A DNA stretch of 40,307 nucleotides from a candidate division WWE3 bacterium (lineage in GTDB: Bacteria > Patescibacteriota > WWE3 > UBA101185 > UBA10185): assembly GCA_003599255.1 (NCBI GenBank), contig QZJF01000008.1, forward strand, positions 1 to 40,307, in the 5' to 3' direction. The notes beneath the pieces are model-generated. The model had not been told where the DNA came from. It searched no databases and was given only the letters and a program-made list of their open reading frames with translations. Positions 2,876 through 8,871 of the stretch are shown here, in pieces. Made by a program: the position numbers and the translations under genes. Numbering within the stretch: position 1 is the first letter of the stretch; each line of letters opens with the position of its first letter.

Positions 2876-2906
2876 CAAAAGCCCGCCAAAAGCGGGCTTT
2901 TGTTTT
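2876..2906. terminator. Bidirectional rho-independent terminator
   Basis: An 11-bp stem, CAAAAGCCCGC at 2876-2886 with GCGGGCTTTTG at 2892-2902, has loop CAAAA and is followed by TTTT on the + strand. A-runs on the 5' side serve the - strand. It sits between two convergent operons (DUF932-like gene and queF). Confidence 0.92.
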
Positions 2907-2930
2907 GGGACGTAGGAGATAAGCGGGAAG

Positions 2931-3308
2931 TTACAATGACCGTGTAACGGACGTTTGAATGCCCCCGCGACCGTTGAAATCTCCTGTGACTCTGAGTTTT
3001 TTTGGATTGATTGTATCTCTAACATCGCAAAAGATTTTGTTGACGGAGTTTTCCATGAAGATACCAACATTACGATACGCTGTTAGATACAATTTCAAAC
3101 TTTTTAACTCCAAGCACAGGTCATTTGGTATGTATTCAATCGTGATAATACCAAAATCGGGCAGACCTGTTTTTGGGCAGATGCTGTTGAATTCCAGCGC
3201 AGCGTGTGTAATTTGGAATTCGGAATCTGTGTAAACATTGTGGAAGATTTCAATTTCCGGCATCTTCAAATCTCGGATTTCGTCTTGGCGTCCTTCGTAT
3301 TCAGACAT
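2931..3308 (-). CDS. queF: QueF-like preQ0 reductase
   Basis: It is predicted to reduce the nitrile of preQ0 to the aminomethyl of preQ1 with NADPH. It is short (125 residues; Bacillus QueF is about 165) and of the single-domain type. CPKTGLPDF carries nucleophile Cys44 and Asp51. ELKSLKLYLTAYRN matches the NADPH-side motif (usually ESKSLK). GIFMEN keeps Glu86, but the His that usually precedes it (FHE) is Met85. RGGI lies near the C-terminus. AGGA stands 8 bases before ATG. It is the last gene of the operon, 8 bases after the CxxCxxCC gene. Its presence implies a dPreQ1-type DNA base rather than dPreQ0. Confidence 0.85.
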   Translation of the reverse strand: MSEYEGRQDEIRDLKMPEIEIFHNVYTDSEFQITHAALEFNSICPKTGLPDFGIITIEYIPNDLCLELKSLKLYLTAYRNVGIFMENSVNKIFCDVRDTINPKKLRVTGDFNGRGGIQTSVTRSL

Positions 3309-3316
3309 GTTTCATC

Positions 3317-3991
3317 CTACTTTCTTGTTCCATAGAAGGTTCGTGTATAATTCATTTCATTATCAATATATAACTTGTACAGCTTTTTATCGTCATAAAG
3401 ATAAGTAAGGAGCTCTTGAATTCTTGGGATTTTCGAATCTATTTCGAAATAGCACATCCACTGTTGTAAGTGAGATAAAAGAGCGTTGATATGCATAACG
3501 TTAGCCTCTGAAATCTCAGAGATAATGCACGGAAGTTTTCTTTCGCCTGTAATGGCCAATCGCAATCGTCCTGCTTTGGTCACTGAAACGGTCTTGATAT
3601 CGGTTTTGGTTATTCGTCCAACTAAGGGAGCAAGTCTGCATAGCAATGGTCTGGTTGAATAGATATTACATTGTCCCGTAGTCGAGAGATTTTTACAGAA
3701 CAATTGCTTTTCATTTTGTATTACGGAATACACAATCTTTTTGATTTCATTAACAACAATGCCTCGAGGTTGCGCTTCTTGGGGGTAGGTTTCAGTAGGG
3801 AGGTAATCCAGCGTTACAGGTTTGCAGCAAGCTCCGCAAAACAGCGGACAGGAGCATGTTCGAAGTAGCAAAGGAGAAATTATCAACGGCGTAGGTGAAA
3901 ATTTACGGCCTTCGAAATCGAAATCCTTGGAAGTGAAGAGCGCTGCGTAGCCGCCCATAAATCGTACTATTGAATCTAAGTTGCCGTACAT
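3317..3991 (-). CDS. CxxCxxCC metal-cluster protein, candidate dPreQ1 methylase
   Basis: The product is 224 residues. Two cysteine groups, C46-C48-C52-C55-C56 and C99, C108, C118 (CNIYSTRPLLCR), match the YkgJ/CxxCxxCC family thought to bind zinc or an Fe-S cluster. To my knowledge the flagellin lysine N-methylase FliB carries the same motif, so N-methylation of the preQ1 amine is an attractive guess. A dPreQ1 methylase, DpdM, is known in phages, but I cannot confirm homology. It lies between queC and queF in the same operon. No clear SD precedes ATG 3991; the gap from the queC stop is 13 bases, so coupling is likely. Confidence 0.55.
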   Translation of the reverse strand: MYGNLDSIVRFMGGYAALFTSKDFDFEGRKFSPTPLIISPLLLRTCSCPLFCGACCKPVTLDYLPTETYPQEAQPRGIVVNEIKKIVYSVIQNEKQLFCKNLSTTGQCNIYSTRPLLCRLAPLVGRITKTDIKTVSVTKAGRLRLAITGERKLPCIISEISEANVMHINALLSHLQQWMCYFEIDSKIPRIQELLTYLYDDKKLYKLYIDNEMNYTRTFYGTRK

Positions 3992-4004: not shown

Positions 4005-4706
4005 CTACTGTTGCAAGTTTGCGTATCGAGTAGGGTCTGCGACTCCTGCTTGCTGAAATCCTTTTCTCCTAATCAAACAAGAGTCGCAGAGGCCGCAAGC
4101 AAGTCCTTCGTCAGAAGGATTGTAACAACTATGAGTTAACTCGAAAGGTACATTGAGTTCTGCACCTTTTTTGATAATATCAGCTTTGCTGAGCATTACC
4201 AATGGTGCTTTGATTGCTATGGAAGCACCTGCAACACCACGTCGAGTGCTTTTATCAATCATGCGCTGAAACGAAGTTACAAATTCAGGTCTACAATCGG
4301 GGTATCCCGAGTAATCTACAGCATTAATTCCCATGTAGATTGCATCAGCGTTCTCAACGTCTGCCAGCGCTGTGGCTATGCTTAAGAAGATGATGTTGCG
4401 TGAAGGTACGTAAGTGACTGGTATGGATGAAAGCATATCATCCAAAGCTCTATTTTCCGGGACAGCGATATCTTTGGATGTTAATGCAGAATTTGAAATG
4501 AAATCAAGTGAGAGAGGCACAATAACATGTTTTACCGCATATCTTTCAGCGATTTTCATAGCTGCTTCAAGCTCTACTTTGTGTCGTTGGTTGTAATTGA
4601 AGCTTAGGGCTACAACTTGATTTGATTCTGTTTTGGCGATTGCTGCTGCTACAGCAGAATCGAGGCCACCACTGATTAGAGCAATTGATGTTTTGAATCG
4701 CGGCAT
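4005..4706 (-). CDS. queC: 7-cyano-7-deazaguanine synthase QueC
   Basis: QueC converts 7-carboxy-7-deazaguanine to preQ0 using ATP and ammonia. The 233-residue product has the PP-loop SGGLDS at 12-17, a GINAVDYSGYPDCRPEF segment, and the C-terminal zinc site HSCYNPSDEGLACGLCDSC with four cysteines. The length is normal. I chose ATG 4706 because GAGGAG lies 8 bases upstream; an ATG at 4733 is further inside the GNAT gene. The start overlaps the GNAT gene by 31 bases. No glutamine amidotransferase domain is fused, so this is plain QueC, not the Gat-QueC seen in dG+ phages. Confidence 0.95.
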   Translation of the reverse strand: MPRFKTSIALISGGLDSAVAAAIAKTESNQVVALSFNYNQRHKVELEAAMKIAERYAVKHVIVPLSLDFISNSALTSKDIAVPENRALDDMLSSIPVTYVPSRNIIFLSIATALADVENADAIYMGINAVDYSGYPDCRPEFVTSFQRMIDKSTRRGVAGASIAIKAPLVMLSKADIIKKGAELNVPFELTHSCYNPSDEGLACGLCDSCLIRRKGFQQAGVADPTRYANLQQ

Positions 4707-5362
4707 ATCGTTTTCTCCTCTTTGATTTGGCATGTTGATTTGATATGTTGAATGTATGAATCAAGCGTAGGGACAAATTCGGGTTTGTGCTTTTCTAAAA
4801 TCTCTTTGTTCTTCTCATAGAGTTCGGTTTGATACGACGAATTTGTTAGTTGAATAGAAATGTCAGGCGAAATACGCGACCACATTGCTGTCCAAGAAGA
4901 AGATTCTAGAAGGTCAAACTGGAACAGACAAATTGACTTTGCAGATGCAGTCTTGTGCTTGAGTTCACCGGCCAATCTCATCCCTAAAGTCGGAAGTAAT
5001 GTAAATTGTATTGGATTATCTCCTACGATTGAATCTTCGAAAAGGCGGCGGCCTTCAAGTATGCCCTGAAATGTGATTGCAGCGTACATTGAAGAAGCAA
5101 TTCGTTGGCGGCGATATTCTGGAATCACACCTACCATTCCGTACTTGATAAGATGCGCTTGTGTTCTGCTTGCAATTTCGACTACACCTACGATGTCTGT
5201 TCCATCTTTAGCAGTGAAAAAGGAAGGCTTTTTTGGAACGATTTTTTGTGAAATCTGTGTTGCTATAGTAAAACCGCCGAGATAGCCTATGATTGTATGA
5301 TGATTAAGCACGGCTTGTATTTCGACAACTTCGTGGGTCTTGGCTGGTGAAATTGTAATCAT
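4676..5362 (-). CDS. GNAT-family acetyltransferase in the deazaguanine operon
   Basis: The product is 228 residues. A GNAT fold is suggested by AKDGTDIVGVVEIA (about 51-64) and GMVGVIPEYRRQRIASSMY (75-93), where RRQRIA stands for the acetyl-CoA pyrophosphate loop (Q/RxxGxG/A). A C-terminal extension of about 60 residues is unassigned. The start codon overlaps the folE stop (ATGA), so it is translationally coupled inside the pathway operon. GNAT enzymes acylate primary amines, and preQ1 has one, so acetylation of preQ1 or dPreQ1 is a possible role. This is inference: a host-targeted acetyltransferase cannot be excluded. Confidence 0.75.
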   Translation of the reverse strand: MITISPAKTHEVVEIQAVLNHHTIIGYLGGFTIATQISQKIVPKKPSFFTAKDGTDIVGVVEIASRTQAHLIKYGMVGVIPEYRRQRIASSMYAAITFQGILEGRRLFEDSIVGDNPIQFTLLPTLGMRLAGELKHKTASAKSICLFQFDLLESSSWTAMWSRISPDISIQLTNSSYQTELYEKNKEILEKHKPEFVPTLDSYIQHIKSTCQIKEEKTICRDSKHQLL

Positions 5363-5928
5363 CTTGTTAGCTCCAAAAATTCTTGTCGAGTTTCAGCCTG
5401 CTCTCGGAATAGTCCAAGCATTGCAGATGTAACCATTCTACTTCCAACCTTCTTCACACCGCGGCAAGCTACACAGAGATGTTCAGCTTCAATGATTACG
5501 CCTACACCTCGAGATTTCAAAGTAGAAAAAATCATTGAAGCAATCTCCATTGTCATTCGTTCTTGAATCTGTAACCGTTTTGAGTAGATATCAACAAGTC
5601 GTGGTAGCTTTGAAAGGCCTACAACTACCTTGTTAGGAAGATATCCGATATGACAGACACCTTGGAACGGGAGAATATGATGTTCGCAGAACGACATAAA
5701 CGGGATGTTTTTGCAGACGATGATTTCGTCATAATCATGAGTTTCAGTGAATGTTTTTTGGAGAACTCGACGAATTTGTATATCCGAATACATGTAGCCC
5801 GAAAACAGTTCAGAATACGACCTCAATACTCTTCGAGGAGTTTCCCTTAGCCCCTCACGGTCGGGATTATCTCCAATCAATGAAATGAGATTTCGAATAA
5901 TCGATATTTGTCTTGTTATTTTATTCAT
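5359..5928 (-). CDS. folE: GTP cyclohydrolase I
   Basis: FolE makes 7,8-dihydroneopterin triphosphate from GTP, the first step of 7-deazaguanine synthesis. In the 189-residue product the zinc ligands are visible as C81 and H84 (SFCEHHILPF) and C152 (EHLCVAC). GLSKLPR and SRMVTSAMLGLF are typical of the family. The ATG at 5928 overlaps the queD stop by 8 bases, suggesting coupling; an upstream alternative start lies deep inside queD. A phage copy would raise flux from GTP into the base modification. Confidence 0.95.
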   Translation of the reverse strand: MNKITRQISIIRNLISLIGDNPDREGLRETPRRVLRSYSELFSGYMYSDIQIRRVLQKTFTETHDYDEIIVCKNIPFMSFCEHHILPFQGVCHIGYLPNKVVVGLSKLPRLVDIYSKRLQIQERMTMEIASMIFSTLKSRGVGVIIEAEHLCVACRGVKKVGSRMVTSAMLGLFREQAETRQEFLELTR

Positions 5929-6352
5929 AGTACGATGCTTTGCTTGTAGGGGTTTCCCAAATATCAATTTTTGAGAGTGCAATAGAAGCGATTCCTTGTG
6001 AAGCAAACAGGCCTTTTAGCTCAGAGTAGAAAATTCTGGCCATGTTTTCTGCTGTAGGCTCGCAAGGAAACCCTATCCATTTCAATCCGAGGTCACGACA
6101 AAGTTCTTTGACTTTCATATCTTCTACATTCAGCATCATACAATGGTCGTAAGTTTCATCTAACCATTTTTTGATAATTCCCTTCATGATAGAAAAGTCA
6201 ATGACCATTCCGTCTTTGCTAAGAGTTTCGGAAGTGGGAACTACTGTGACTTGCAATTTGTATGTATGCCCATGAAGATTGTGACAGGCACCTTTGTAGT
6301 AAAGCAGTCGGTGTCCAGCATCGAATGTAAACTCTTTTGTAATAAAATACAT
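5921..6352 (-). CDS. queD: 6-carboxytetrahydropterin synthase QueD
   Basis: QueD converts dihydroneopterin triphosphate to 6-carboxy-5,6,7,8-tetrahydropterin. The product is 143 residues, a usual length. Zinc ligands H14, H27 and H29 and catalytic C23 are seen in FDAGHRL and GACHNLHGHTYKL; the C-terminal WETPTS segment is also typical. GGAG lies 6 bases before the ATG. It is 9 bases after queE and overlaps folE by 8 bases. Confidence 0.95.
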   Translation of the reverse strand: MYFITKEFTFDAGHRLLYYKGACHNLHGHTYKLQVTVVPTSETLSKDGMVIDFSIMKGIIKKWLDETYDHCMMLNVEDMKVKELCRDLGLKWIGFPCEPTAENMARIFYSELKGLFASQGIASIALSKIDIWETPTSKASYYE

Positions 6353-6361
6353 GTTATCTCC

Positions 6362-7147
6362 TTACACTCTACGAAGTGCAGCGTTGAAAATGACTACGTG
6401 AAGTCTATTGCAGAAACGAAATCCATGCCTCTTACACTGGTCAACAAGAAGTTGTGAAGTTCTAAGAAGTTCTTCGGATGACCTGCATTCTGGCATGATT
6501 AAGATTTTGGTATGGTCAAGCTTAGCATCTTCGATGATGCTCAGAATCTCAGAAAAATCTTCTTGCGAACCTACTACAAATTTGAACCAAGAGTTGTCTA
6601 ACGAGTTGAATGTTTCTAACACATTTTTTTTGTACCGTGCTGATACTAGATTATTTGAATTAGATGTTTTGGGCGATACATTGTACTGAGCCACAAATGC
6701 TTGCGTGTGTTTTGTGGGGGCAACAGTCCCATTTGTTTCAACTTCAATGGTGAATCCGTCAAGGACTAGCCCTTCAAGTAACTGTTGGAAGCTGCTGGAT
6801 TGTTGCTGTATAAGAGGTTCGCCTCCAGTCAGAACGATGTTGTGTATGTTGTATGTAACAAGAATTTTATCGATTTCCGCCCGAATATCATTTACTGTCA
6901 TACAAACAACTTCTTTTTCGGGGTCGTACTTGATGTTGTGACCTGTTTCCCGGTCGCGATGCGGAAATAGTGTTCCTATCCAATTCCATGTATAAGGCGT
7001 ATCACACCAAATACAATGAAGATTACAGCCGGATAAACGAATAAAGACGCTGGGAAGACCTGTGTTTGTTCCTTCCCCCTGAATACTTGCGAAGACCTCC
7101 GCAACGTTCAGGTAATCGTCGTGAACTTTGAGTCGTGATAAAGCCAT
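6362..7147 (-). CDS. queE: 7-carboxy-7-deazaguanine synthase QueE (radical SAM)
   Basis: QueE rearranges 6-carboxytetrahydropterin to 7-carboxy-7-deazaguanine. The 261-residue product has SIQGEGTNTGLPSVFIRLSG, the radical SAM cluster motif C41-NLH-C45-IW-C48, then DTPYTW and TGGEPL, all typical of QueE. ATG 7147 is preferred because GGAG lies 8 bases upstream; a TTG at 7162 lacks an SD. The stop is 9 bases before queD. The host would need to supply flavodoxin or another reductant, as none is visible here. Confidence 0.95.
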   Translation of the reverse strand: MALSRLKVHDDYLNVAEVFASIQGEGTNTGLPSVFIRLSGCNLHCIWCDTPYTWNWIGTLFPHRDRETGHNIKYDPEKEVVCMTVNDIRAEIDKILVTYNIHNIVLTGGEPLIQQQSSSFQQLLEGLVLDGFTIEVETNGTVAPTKHTQAFVAQYNVSPKTSNSNNLVSARYKKNVLETFNSLDNSWFKFVVGSQEDFSEILSIIEDAKLDHTKILIMPECRSSEELLRTSQLLVDQCKRHGFRFCNRLHVVIFNAALRRV

Positions 7148-7174
7148 TGTTTTATTCTCCAATACATAATGATG

Positions 7175-7534
7175 TTATTGTTTTTCCCAAGGAAATATTA
7201 GCCAATCACAGGTTTTTTCTATACAAAATCTATGCGGAACAACTATAGATTGACGATGGAATGCATAAGTTACGATTGTTAGACCTCTTGTAGCGAATGG
7301 GAAAAGTTGTTTTCCTGTATCGGAGATATCATCAACAATCAGTGTATTCGTTGTAATGAGTTCCTCGTGTAAAACAATGGGCAGATTCAGTGCATGCGAT
7401 ACGAGTGTTGCGATAGGAAGCCCTCCTCGGGGCAGTCCATATACTCCACCCAATGTTTTCAACCACGAATCGTTAGTTAGCTGCTCGAATACGAAATCAT
7501 AGATTTCGTTCCAAGTAATGATTTTCGAAATCAT
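7175..7534 (-). CDS. Purine-type phosphoribosyltransferase
   Basis: The product is 119 residues. The PRPP-binding motif is clear at about 64-75 (TLIVDDISDTGK), preceded by VYGLPRGGLPIATLVSHAL at 31-49 as in xanthine-guanine type enzymes. It is shorter than Gpt (about 150). The start at ATG 7534 overlaps dpdA by 38 bases; no strong SD is seen. Next to a base-exchanging transglycosylase, a likely role is turning released guanine into GMP, or acting on a deazaguanine base. Neither is shown by the sequence. Confidence 0.8.
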   Translation of the reverse strand: MISKIITWNEIYDFVFEQLTNDSWLKTLGGVYGLPRGGLPIATLVSHALNLPIVLHEELITTNTLIVDDISDTGKQLFPFATRGLTIVTYAFHRQSIVVPHRFCIEKTCDWLIFPWEKQ

Positions 7535-8486
7535 GAATTTGTTGTAAAGCCTGTAAAGAATCGTCAATGAAGCGCGAACCAGTTAGAGCGTGAAAGACCT
7601 TTGTTCCTAGTATCCATTCGACAAGGAGACCTTGCTCGAGATGACTTCTAATTGTAATCTTGGAAGAAAAAGCATGTTGAGTTCTCCAAGATTCGTGGTC
7701 GAAGAGTTTTGCGGGGTCAACGCCCTTGCTTTCGGTGGCTGAGTATAACCTCAAAGTGAAATCAGAAAGATATTCGGGCTTGGACAATTTTTGTAAACTA
7801 AGAAATGATGCAGAATCTTCGTTCTTTTGACTACCTTTTCCCATTCCTTTGTGCACCGAGCTTGCAGTTACGAAGTTTTGAAGGAAAGTGATTCCACCCC
7901 ATCGTTGTGCCCCAGCAAAGTTTGATGAATCAACTGAGTATGGACGATATTTGATAACATGATTGATGTTGGTTACGCCAAGCCAGTGACATTTTCTTCC
8001 CTGCAATTTTTCTGTCAAAGGCTTGAGATAAGTATGTAAGAAGTTTGAGCCCTCGAATGAGAAAATACCTCCAATTCCTACATAATCTGAGTATTCATAG
8101 CACTTTTCTAATTCATCAAAGTTACTTTTTCGTGTGTAGATTGGAATTACGTCAAAGCCTGCATCTTTCAATTCAAAGAAGTTGTTCCAAGTTCGTTCCT
8201 GGTCGCCCACTACATCTAATGTGAAGCATCTCCAGAATAGTTCTTTGTGCTCTTTGAGGAAGGACTTGTATGAGGAAATAGATATCTCTTTCTTTAGAGA
8301 ATAGGCGGAAAACGCACCACTATCAAGTAAAATCGTTAGATTTTCTCCAAGTTCTTCTTTGAGTCGTTTGAGTCTGTTCAGTAGCGACTTTCCAGATTGA
8401 AGATAGTAATACGAAACAAGAATTCGTAGCGTAATGGGCTTAGAGAATTGTATGATTTGTGCTGATGAGTTTGCTTGGATGTTCAT
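7497..8486 (-). CDS. dpdA: DpdA-type DNA guanine transglycosylase
   Basis: It is related to tRNA-guanine transglycosylase and is predicted to exchange guanine in DNA for a 7-deazaguanine base. In the 329-residue product, LLDSGAFSAY at about 53-62 provides the first conserved Asp (D55), TLDVVGD follows at about 89-95, and SVDSSNFAGAQRWGG (184-198) gives a second Asp (D186), as in phage DpdA proteins. ATG 8486 has AAGG 6 bases upstream; an alternative start at 8564 lies deep inside the ParB-like gene. The DpdA subfamily and target sequence preference cannot be read by eye. Neighbouring que genes strongly support the role. Confidence 0.88.
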   Translation of the reverse strand: MNIQANSSAQIIQFSKPITLRILVSYYYLQSGKSLLNRLKRLKEELGENLTILLDSGAFSAYSLKKEISISSYKSFLKEHKELFWRCFTLDVVGDQERTWNNFFELKDAGFDVIPIYTRKSNFDELEKCYEYSDYVGIGGIFSFEGSNFLHTYLKPLTEKLQGRKCHWLGVTNINHVIKYRPYSVDSSNFAGAQRWGGITFLQNFVTASSVHKGMGKGSQKNEDSASFLSLQKLSKPEYLSDFTLRLYSATESKGVDPAKLFDHESWRTQHAFSSKITIRSHLEQGLLVEWILGTKVFHALTGSRFIDDSLQALQQIHDFENHYLERNL

Positions 8487-8871
8487 GCTGACCTTGAAAC
8501 AAGGATTGAATGATTGATGGAATCGTTGTTTGTGAAATTTCTTTAAACACTTCTCCATTGACAAGCGTAGCGTTGTAAAGAAGCAAATGGTCGATTTCAG
8601 TGAGAGCCAAGTTTGTGTTGATTCGAAGTATTCGCTCCATGTCCTCAGAGCATTCGCAAATCATTCCGAAAGTAGTTGCAATTCCGAGTTGTTGAAGAAT
8701 CGAGGCTCGAACATAACCATCTATATACCTCATAGTGGTTTTGTTAACCACAATGCCTCCCATGTAGCCTTGTTTTAGGGAGTTTTCGAGTCGCTGATAC
8801 GCATCTTTGGAGTATCTACGAAGTGGAAAGAGTGGAGGTGAGTAGTCTGATAAAATGATATTTGTTTCCAT
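8440..8871 (-). CDS. ParB-like (ParB/Srx fold) protein beside dpdA
   Basis: The product is 143 residues. LFPLRRYSKDAYQRLENSLK and GGIVVNKTTMRYIDGYVRAS (about 38-57) match a lone ParB N-terminal domain with its GxxR signature (G52, R55). There is no helix-turn-helix or dimerisation domain. In bacterial Dpd islands, DpdA works with DpdB, which carries a ParB-related domain, so this may be the DNA-recognition or NTPase partner of DpdA; that is inference. Start and upstream helicase stop overlap as TAATG; the end overlaps dpdA by 47 bases. Confidence 0.7.
   Translation of the reverse strand: METNIILSDYSPPLFPLRRYSKDAYQRLENSLKQGYMGGIVVNKTTMRYIDGYVRASILQQLGIATTFGMICECSEDMERILRINTNLALTEIDHLLLYNATLVNGEVFKEISQTTIPSIIQSLFQGQHEHPSKLISTNHTIL

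Follow-up and report, generated by a model that had tools for sequence, protein, structure and literature searches.

Which group might a virus place on its DNA when a GNAT-type acyltransferase is embedded among its genes for 7-deazaguanine synthesis? This question is raised by a gene cluster in the window, i.e., the whole stretch of 40,307 bases analyzed here. The window is the entire metagenomic IMG/VR contig IMGVR_UViG_3300007351_000495, and the same contig is present as contig C10 in a 1.1-Mb binned genome. A 17-bp direct repeat occurs at both contig ends (1–17 and 40291–40307) and nowhere else in the contig, which suggests that the genome is circular or has terminal redundancy. The ORF list of the window showed no obvious genes for a major capsid or tail protein. 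The gene order on the minus strand is helicase, ParB-like protein, DpdA, phosphoribosyltransferase-like protein, QueE, QueD, FolE, GNAT, QueC, CxxCxxCC protein, and QueF. Apart from the helicase, these features are:

8440–8871, minus strand: ParB-like protein overlapping dpdA (phrog_620, 0.005)
7497–8564, minus strand: DpdA, DNA-guanine transglycosylase (phrog_887)
7175–7567, minus strand: short phosphoribosyltransferase-like protein (phrog_8995, 1e-8)
6362–7162, minus strand: QueE, radical SAM protein; better start ATG 7147 (phrog_2076, 1e-53)
5921–6352, minus strand: QueD (TIGR03367, over cut-off)
5359–6006, minus strand: FolE, GTP cyclohydrolase I; likely true start ATG 5928 (PF01227, 2e-68)
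4676–5362, minus strand: GNAT acyltransferase of the GNAT1 subfamily, 228 aa, GNAT domain (residues 1–150) plus C-terminal extension (PF00583, AlphaFold2 model, homologue in viral locus L068)
4005–4733, minus strand: QueC; better start ATG 4706 (TIGR00364, over cut-off)
3317–3991, minus strand: CxxCxxCC (YkgJ-type) protein, probable dPreQ1 N-methylase (PF03692; phage homologues beside queF/dpdA)
2931–3308, minus strand: QueF-II, preQ0 reductase (TIGR03139; catalytic residues kept)

The GNAT gene and the pathway around it

The GNAT ORF was confirmed to be real and to lie on the minus strand; the plus strand contains 13 stop codons over the same stretch. Its start codon (ATG 5362) is preceded by GGAG ~10 nt upstream and overlaps the folE stop codon as ATGA. 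The overlap with queC is 58 nt, or 31 nt from the alternative queC start ATG 4706, whose ribosome-binding site is better. The coupling to folE, the overlap with queC, and the presence of QueF in the same operon as a source of the amine are all as stated in the original prediction.

The window GNAT matched PF00583 with 23.5 bits (cut-off 20.7; E = 7e-5), and its scores for PF13508 and PF13673 were below their cut-offs. An AlphaFold2 model was built on a 21-sequence alignment that included sequences of another GNAT family (GNAT2, see below); the single sequence alone gave a pLDDT of 31. The model has a canonical GNAT domain at residues 1–150 (block pLDDT about 78–97), followed by ~75 C-terminal residues of low confidence. 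The best PDB matches in Foldseek were Ard1/RimI-type acetyltransferases (E ~1e-10, TM by target up to 0.87), and SpeG and other CoA N-acetyltransferases were also matched. At the position of the CoA-binding motif [QR]xxGx[GA], the window protein has RRQRIA, where the first Arg and the last Ala fit and the Gly is replaced by Arg, as it is in the L068 homologue. The general-acid Tyr after strand 5 is absent, with Leu123 in the window, Leu in L068, and Tyr in GNAT2. Many GNATs do without this Tyr, so its absence does not exclude GNAT membership. The atypical P-loop together with Leu123 makes the use of acetyl-CoA by this enzyme less than certain.

FolE, QueD, QueE, and QueC were confirmed by profile searches. 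The window QueF scored 139 bits with TIGR03139, the preQ1 synthase equivalog (cut-off 86.9), and its best PDB matches were bacterial QueF (1e-21, compared to 8e-4 for QueF-L). On this basis, its assignment as a QueF-L amidotransferase, which would lead to dG+, was rejected. Cys44, Asp51, and Glu86 are invariant across the phage QueFs. The active-site His (His96 in B. subtilis) is Met in the window and Gln in Cellulophaga phage phi3:1, with the Cys, Asp, and Glu kept. DpdA was confirmed by its PHROG 887 match (2e-27) and by tblastn homology to phage DpdAs, and its catalytic-type residues D81, D117, and D212 are invariant (alignment A5). Among phages with QueF, Dp-1 and HVTV-1 contain dPreQ1 as determined by mass spectrometry (PMC6884629), and vibrio phage 6E351A contains dPreQ1 at 15% of dG (PMC12028318). 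A free aminomethyl base is therefore expected in the window phage, because its QueF passes the preQ1-synthase cut-off and keeps the catalytic residues, and because QueF phages carry dPreQ1. Like the dPreQ1 type (QueF with DpdA; Dp-1, HVTV-1, 6E351A), the window has the full FolE/QueD/QueE/QueC/QueF and DpdA set; it differs in the added GNAT and CxxCxxCC protein and in the Met of its QueF.

Three further observations concern the surroundings of the pathway. A ParB gene is likewise adjacent to dpdA in phi3:1 and Sonali, and near it in Knocker. The phosphoribosyltransferase-like gene, which has a PRPP motif, recurs in dpdA clusters (17/58 queF+ and 50/118 queF− units), sometimes in one frame with folE; its product might salvage the guanine released by DpdA. 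The binned host genome encodes a tRNA-guanine transglycosylase (contig C4:28238–29281), and its only QueF is the one on the phage contig, the link between phage and host being binning alone.

GNATs in queF clusters of other viruses

Searches of phages, plasmids, and GTDB genome contigs returned no direct homologue of the window GNAT, nor did those of 286 related genomes; a weak IMG/VR match (L003) was rejected because its frame runs antisense to a structural gene. The sole homologue came from the survey of queF loci, where viral locus L068 encodes a protein with 34% identity (E = 4e-25); L113 has the same protein. The existence of this homologue in another virus indicates that the window GNAT is a selected protein. 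The ~75-aa C-terminal region is common to both. In L068, 7 kb separate the gene from queF, and its neighbors are dCMP deaminase-like and ThyX-like genes; besides QueF, this virus encodes a ParB-DUF6610 protein and a YhhQ-like transporter. The GNAT1 homologue is directly followed, with a 4-base overlap, by a second GNAT-like ORF (L068 1950–2636) that has no Pfam hit. The GNAT1 subfamily is thus rare, being present in two viruses. The original prediction had named homology to acetyltransferases that target the host and lie outside que/dpd clusters as counterevidence; no such homology was found in phages, plasmids, IMG/VR, or GTDB genomes.

Other GNATs came to light when whole queF+ records were searched with Pfam models and then with profiles; matches in L058 and L099 were left out as doubtful. 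These GNATs lie among the que genes, in the order queF-GNAT-dpdA in L026, folE-GNAT-queF in L023, L051, and L092, and queF-GNAT-queC in the L055 and L071 groups. In L029 the GNAT adjoins queC, and in phage R5C it adjoins dpdA. The survey of other phages that had been suggested shows GNATs recurring in the queF/dpdA clusters of unrelated viruses. Two queF records labeled as phage (L011 and L012) are Bacteroides-like chromosome fragments and were excluded as phage evidence. Comparison of GNAT1 with GNAT2, the commonest queF-linked GNAT family, gave an hhalign probability of 0.5%, so that at least two subfamilies are unrelated at the profile level. The recruitment of separate GNAT subfamilies to the same clusters looks like convergence.

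Scanning IMG/VR with GNAT2, independently of queF, yielded 27 loci, a count that overstates independent events because many of them are near-duplicates. Twenty-one of the 27 carry queF, in 18 cases within 18 bp. In five of the six queF-less loci (L293, L294, L304, L305, and L306), GNAT2 adjoins or is fused to DUF6610, and L303 has neither queF nor DUF6610. An apparent fusion is that of L293 (8050–9375), where both seem to share one 441-aa frame.

DUF6610 (PF20314) is the family of gp69 of HVTV-1 (L010 12244–13404; 2.7e-56), a virus in which about 30% of G is present as dPreQ1, yet which has no DpdA (PMC6884629). Because HVTV-1 has gp69 and dPreQ1 without DpdA, DUF6610 is a candidate for an alternative DNA transglycosylase, a role that we consider likely. 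DUF6610 proteins were found in queF clusters without DpdA, and beside or fused to GNAT2 (L010, L292, L293, L294, L304, L305, L306, L068, L098, L099, and L018); DpdA and DUF6610 occur together only in L121. DUF6610 is possibly the DpdA4 reported by Cui et al. in 2023.

The co-occurrence of GNATs with queF was quantified per DpdA locus. QueF, GNAT, and CxxCxxCC were scored within 7 kb, the units were dereplicated by DpdA identity, and the GNAT counts exclude the window and every locus retrieved by a GNAT query. At 90% dereplication, GNATs were present in 12/57 queF+ units and 0/118 queF− units (p = 6e-7), and at 70% in 11/50 and 0/70 units (p = 3e-5). The association was weaker at 50% (8/38 and 0/31 units, p = 0.007); at all three levels, the controls were drawn from two DpdA clades, many of the contigs are fragmentary, and independence between the dereplicated units is incomplete. 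Among the controls, weak QueF-profile matches were discounted, their E-values indicating FolE paralogues. As a check on the GNAT profiles, whose seed sequences came from queF+ loci, Pfam models were applied to whole records. Over their cut-offs, PF00583 was found in 5/50 and PF13508 in 4/50 queF+ records, compared to 0/50 and 0/50 queF− records. Within the DpdA clade nearest to the window, GNATs occur in 11/18 queF+ loci (window counted), and the 62 queF− loci have neither GNAT nor CxxCxxCC. Most of this statistical support comes from a GNAT family other than that of the window. Since unrelated viruses repeatedly pair GNATs with queF, and never with clusters lacking queF, the window GNAT probably caps the amine.

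A second candidate tailoring enzyme

The original prediction, which is partly supported, overlooked the CxxCxxCC gene between queC and queF; with this gene in the operon, mdPreQ1 is a serious rival candidate for the final base. The protein matches PF03692 (3e-8), a family that includes the amine methylase FliB. Pan1, phi3:1, and about 13 other loci encode homologues beside queF/dpdA, with eight invariant Cys residues; the identity of the window protein to those of Pan1 and phi3:1 is 26%–30%. At 70% DpdA dereplication, the gene was present in 14/50 queF+ units and 0/70 queF− units (p = 1e-6), or in 9/46 and 0/70 when loci fetched by that gene were omitted. Cui et al. in 2023 reportedly described phages with mdPreQ1 and fdPreQ1, made by the methylase DpdM, which is said to have an unusual fold, and the formyltransferase DpdN. 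We take the CxxCxxCC protein to be DpdM-like; its properties are those to be expected of the reported enzyme, and it is probably a dPreQ1 methylase. The window would thus resemble the mdPreQ1/fdPreQ1 phages in that a phage enzyme, here of probable DpdM type, tailors the dPreQ1 amine. It differs from them in its GNAT candidate, which would form an acyl amide by a different chemistry.

GNAT and CxxCxxCC genes are nearly exclusive, occurring together in QueF+ units only in the window (doubtful L099 left out). Within the R5C/Pan1 group, one member has the GNAT and another the CxxCxxCC gene. Between queF and queC, L055 (like L071) has a GNAT, L066 a different and shorter CxxCxxCC protein (2906–3394), and L054 nothing. 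The two genes look like interchangeable means of tailoring one amine. The window, which has both, may produce a mixture or a doubly capped base; its final base could carry a methyl group, an acyl group, or both. Methylation and acylation of the same nitrogen would give N-acyl-N-methyl-dPreQ1, a tertiary amide and doubly capped 7-deazaguanine that we know of in no DNA; we regard this outcome as distinctly unlikely. The cultured Nanhaivirus phages share a common queF-dpdA cluster and differ in this step, with no tailoring gene in R26L (L006), CxxCxxCC in Pan1 (L007), and a GNAT in R5C (L009). They represent a natural experiment for base analysis.

Proposed acylation of preQ1 and competing explanations

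The proposed pathway begins with FolE, QueD, QueE, and QueC, which would produce preQ0. QueF would convert preQ0 to preQ1, which bears a primary aminomethyl group, and DpdA would exchange guanine in DNA for preQ1. The GNAT would then acylate the preQ1 amine, most likely by transferring acetyl from acetyl-CoA. This could happen on the free base or on DNA; we infer the latter order, with acylation after DpdA. The product would be a 7-(acylaminomethyl)-7-deazaguanine. Acylation would remove a positive charge and add bulk in the major groove, probably as camouflage against restriction.

Thymine hypermodification provides, in principle, a known case of a phage GNAT capping an aminomethyl DNA base. 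In Pseudomonas phage Epa43 (L118), a GNAT2 relative belongs to a cluster whose other genes encode ADDT, an FAD oxidoreductase (DAO), a P-loop kinase, HMUDK_hel, and ThyA; the GNAT is flanked by the oxidoreductase and the kinase. The related phage PaMx11 (Mesyanzhinovviridae) reportedly contains 5-acetylaminomethyl-dU, formed by acetylation of 5-aminomethyl-dU. The likeness to the window is that a GNAT is encoded within a DNA-hypermodification cluster that makes an aminomethyl base. In contrast to the window, that base is a pyrimidine built post-replicatively by ADDT/HMUDK, and the GNATs are related only at the superfamily level: the GNAT1 profile had no match to L118, which was matched only by GNAT2-containing profiles.

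We estimate the probability that the window GNAT N-acylates (d)preQ1 at roughly 60%, and somewhat lower for acetyl specifically. For the window's own enzyme, the case consists of operon position and analogy, because its P-loop is atypical, Leu123 replaces the usual Tyr, and no relation to GNAT2 is detectable beyond the superfamily. The acetyl-dPreQ1 originally predicted is upheld in its genomic logic, as GNATs track queF and not the dpdA clusters that lack it. Its chemistry is a prediction, in which the acyl group could be other than acetyl and the CxxCxxCC methylase competes. No mention of acetyl-dPreQ1 was found in the literature searched, to which Cui et al. 2023 and a 2024 review did not belong.

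The final base could instead be N-methyl-dPreQ1 made by the CxxCxxCC/YkgJ protein, with the GNAT acting on a protein (DpdA, host restriction or defence) or on a host small molecule. The location of the CxxCxxCC gene, its homologues near queF/dpdA, and its absence from all queF− clusters argue for this, as do the reported mdPreQ1 and DpdM precedent and the place of FliB in PF03692. GNATs are also promiscuous, and some phage GNATs modify proteins. This explanation, which we consider unlikely although worth taking seriously, accounts neither for the specific tracking of queF by GNATs nor for the near-absence of GNAT and CxxCxxCC pairs outside the window, a pattern expected of alternative enzymes for one amine. 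It is improbable that the protein modifies DNA with another donor or on another base. Mom of phage Mu, which acts on adenine N6 and has no que pathway, is a GNAT-fold DNA-base modifier, and the RRQRIA loop, the missing catalytic Tyr, and the extra C-terminal region common to L068 would suit such a role. However, the structural matches of the window protein are ordinary CoA-dependent N-acetyltransferases, and the association with queF indicates the aminomethyl group as the target.

Two further explanations would leave the GNAT without a part in the final DNA base. It might acylate free preQ1 and so bar it from host tRNA or steer it, as the transglycosylase of the binned genome, which has no QueF of its own, could let viral preQ1 leak into tRNA. 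We find this very improbable: acylating the free base would deprive DpdA of preQ1, DNA is the target in the thymine-hypermodification precedent, and the host assignment comes from binning. A chance neighbor, i.e., a moron without a role in the pathway, would agree with the rarity of window-type GNATs and with the L068 homologue not being beside que genes. Given the four-base overlap on one side, the gene overlap on the other, and the recurrence of GNATs in queF+ clusters, we regard such an accident as extremely improbable.

Acylation of the preQ1 amine by the GNAT would point to an undescribed class of DNA base, acyl-dPreQ1, across many uncultured phages and at least one cultured phage. The step after QueF would be a modular slot, filled by nothing, by a CxxCxxCC methylase, or by a GNAT, in parallel to thymine hypermodification. 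If this is true, the repertoire of anti-restriction bases grows, and these viruses would be a source of enzymes that acylate an amine on DNA.
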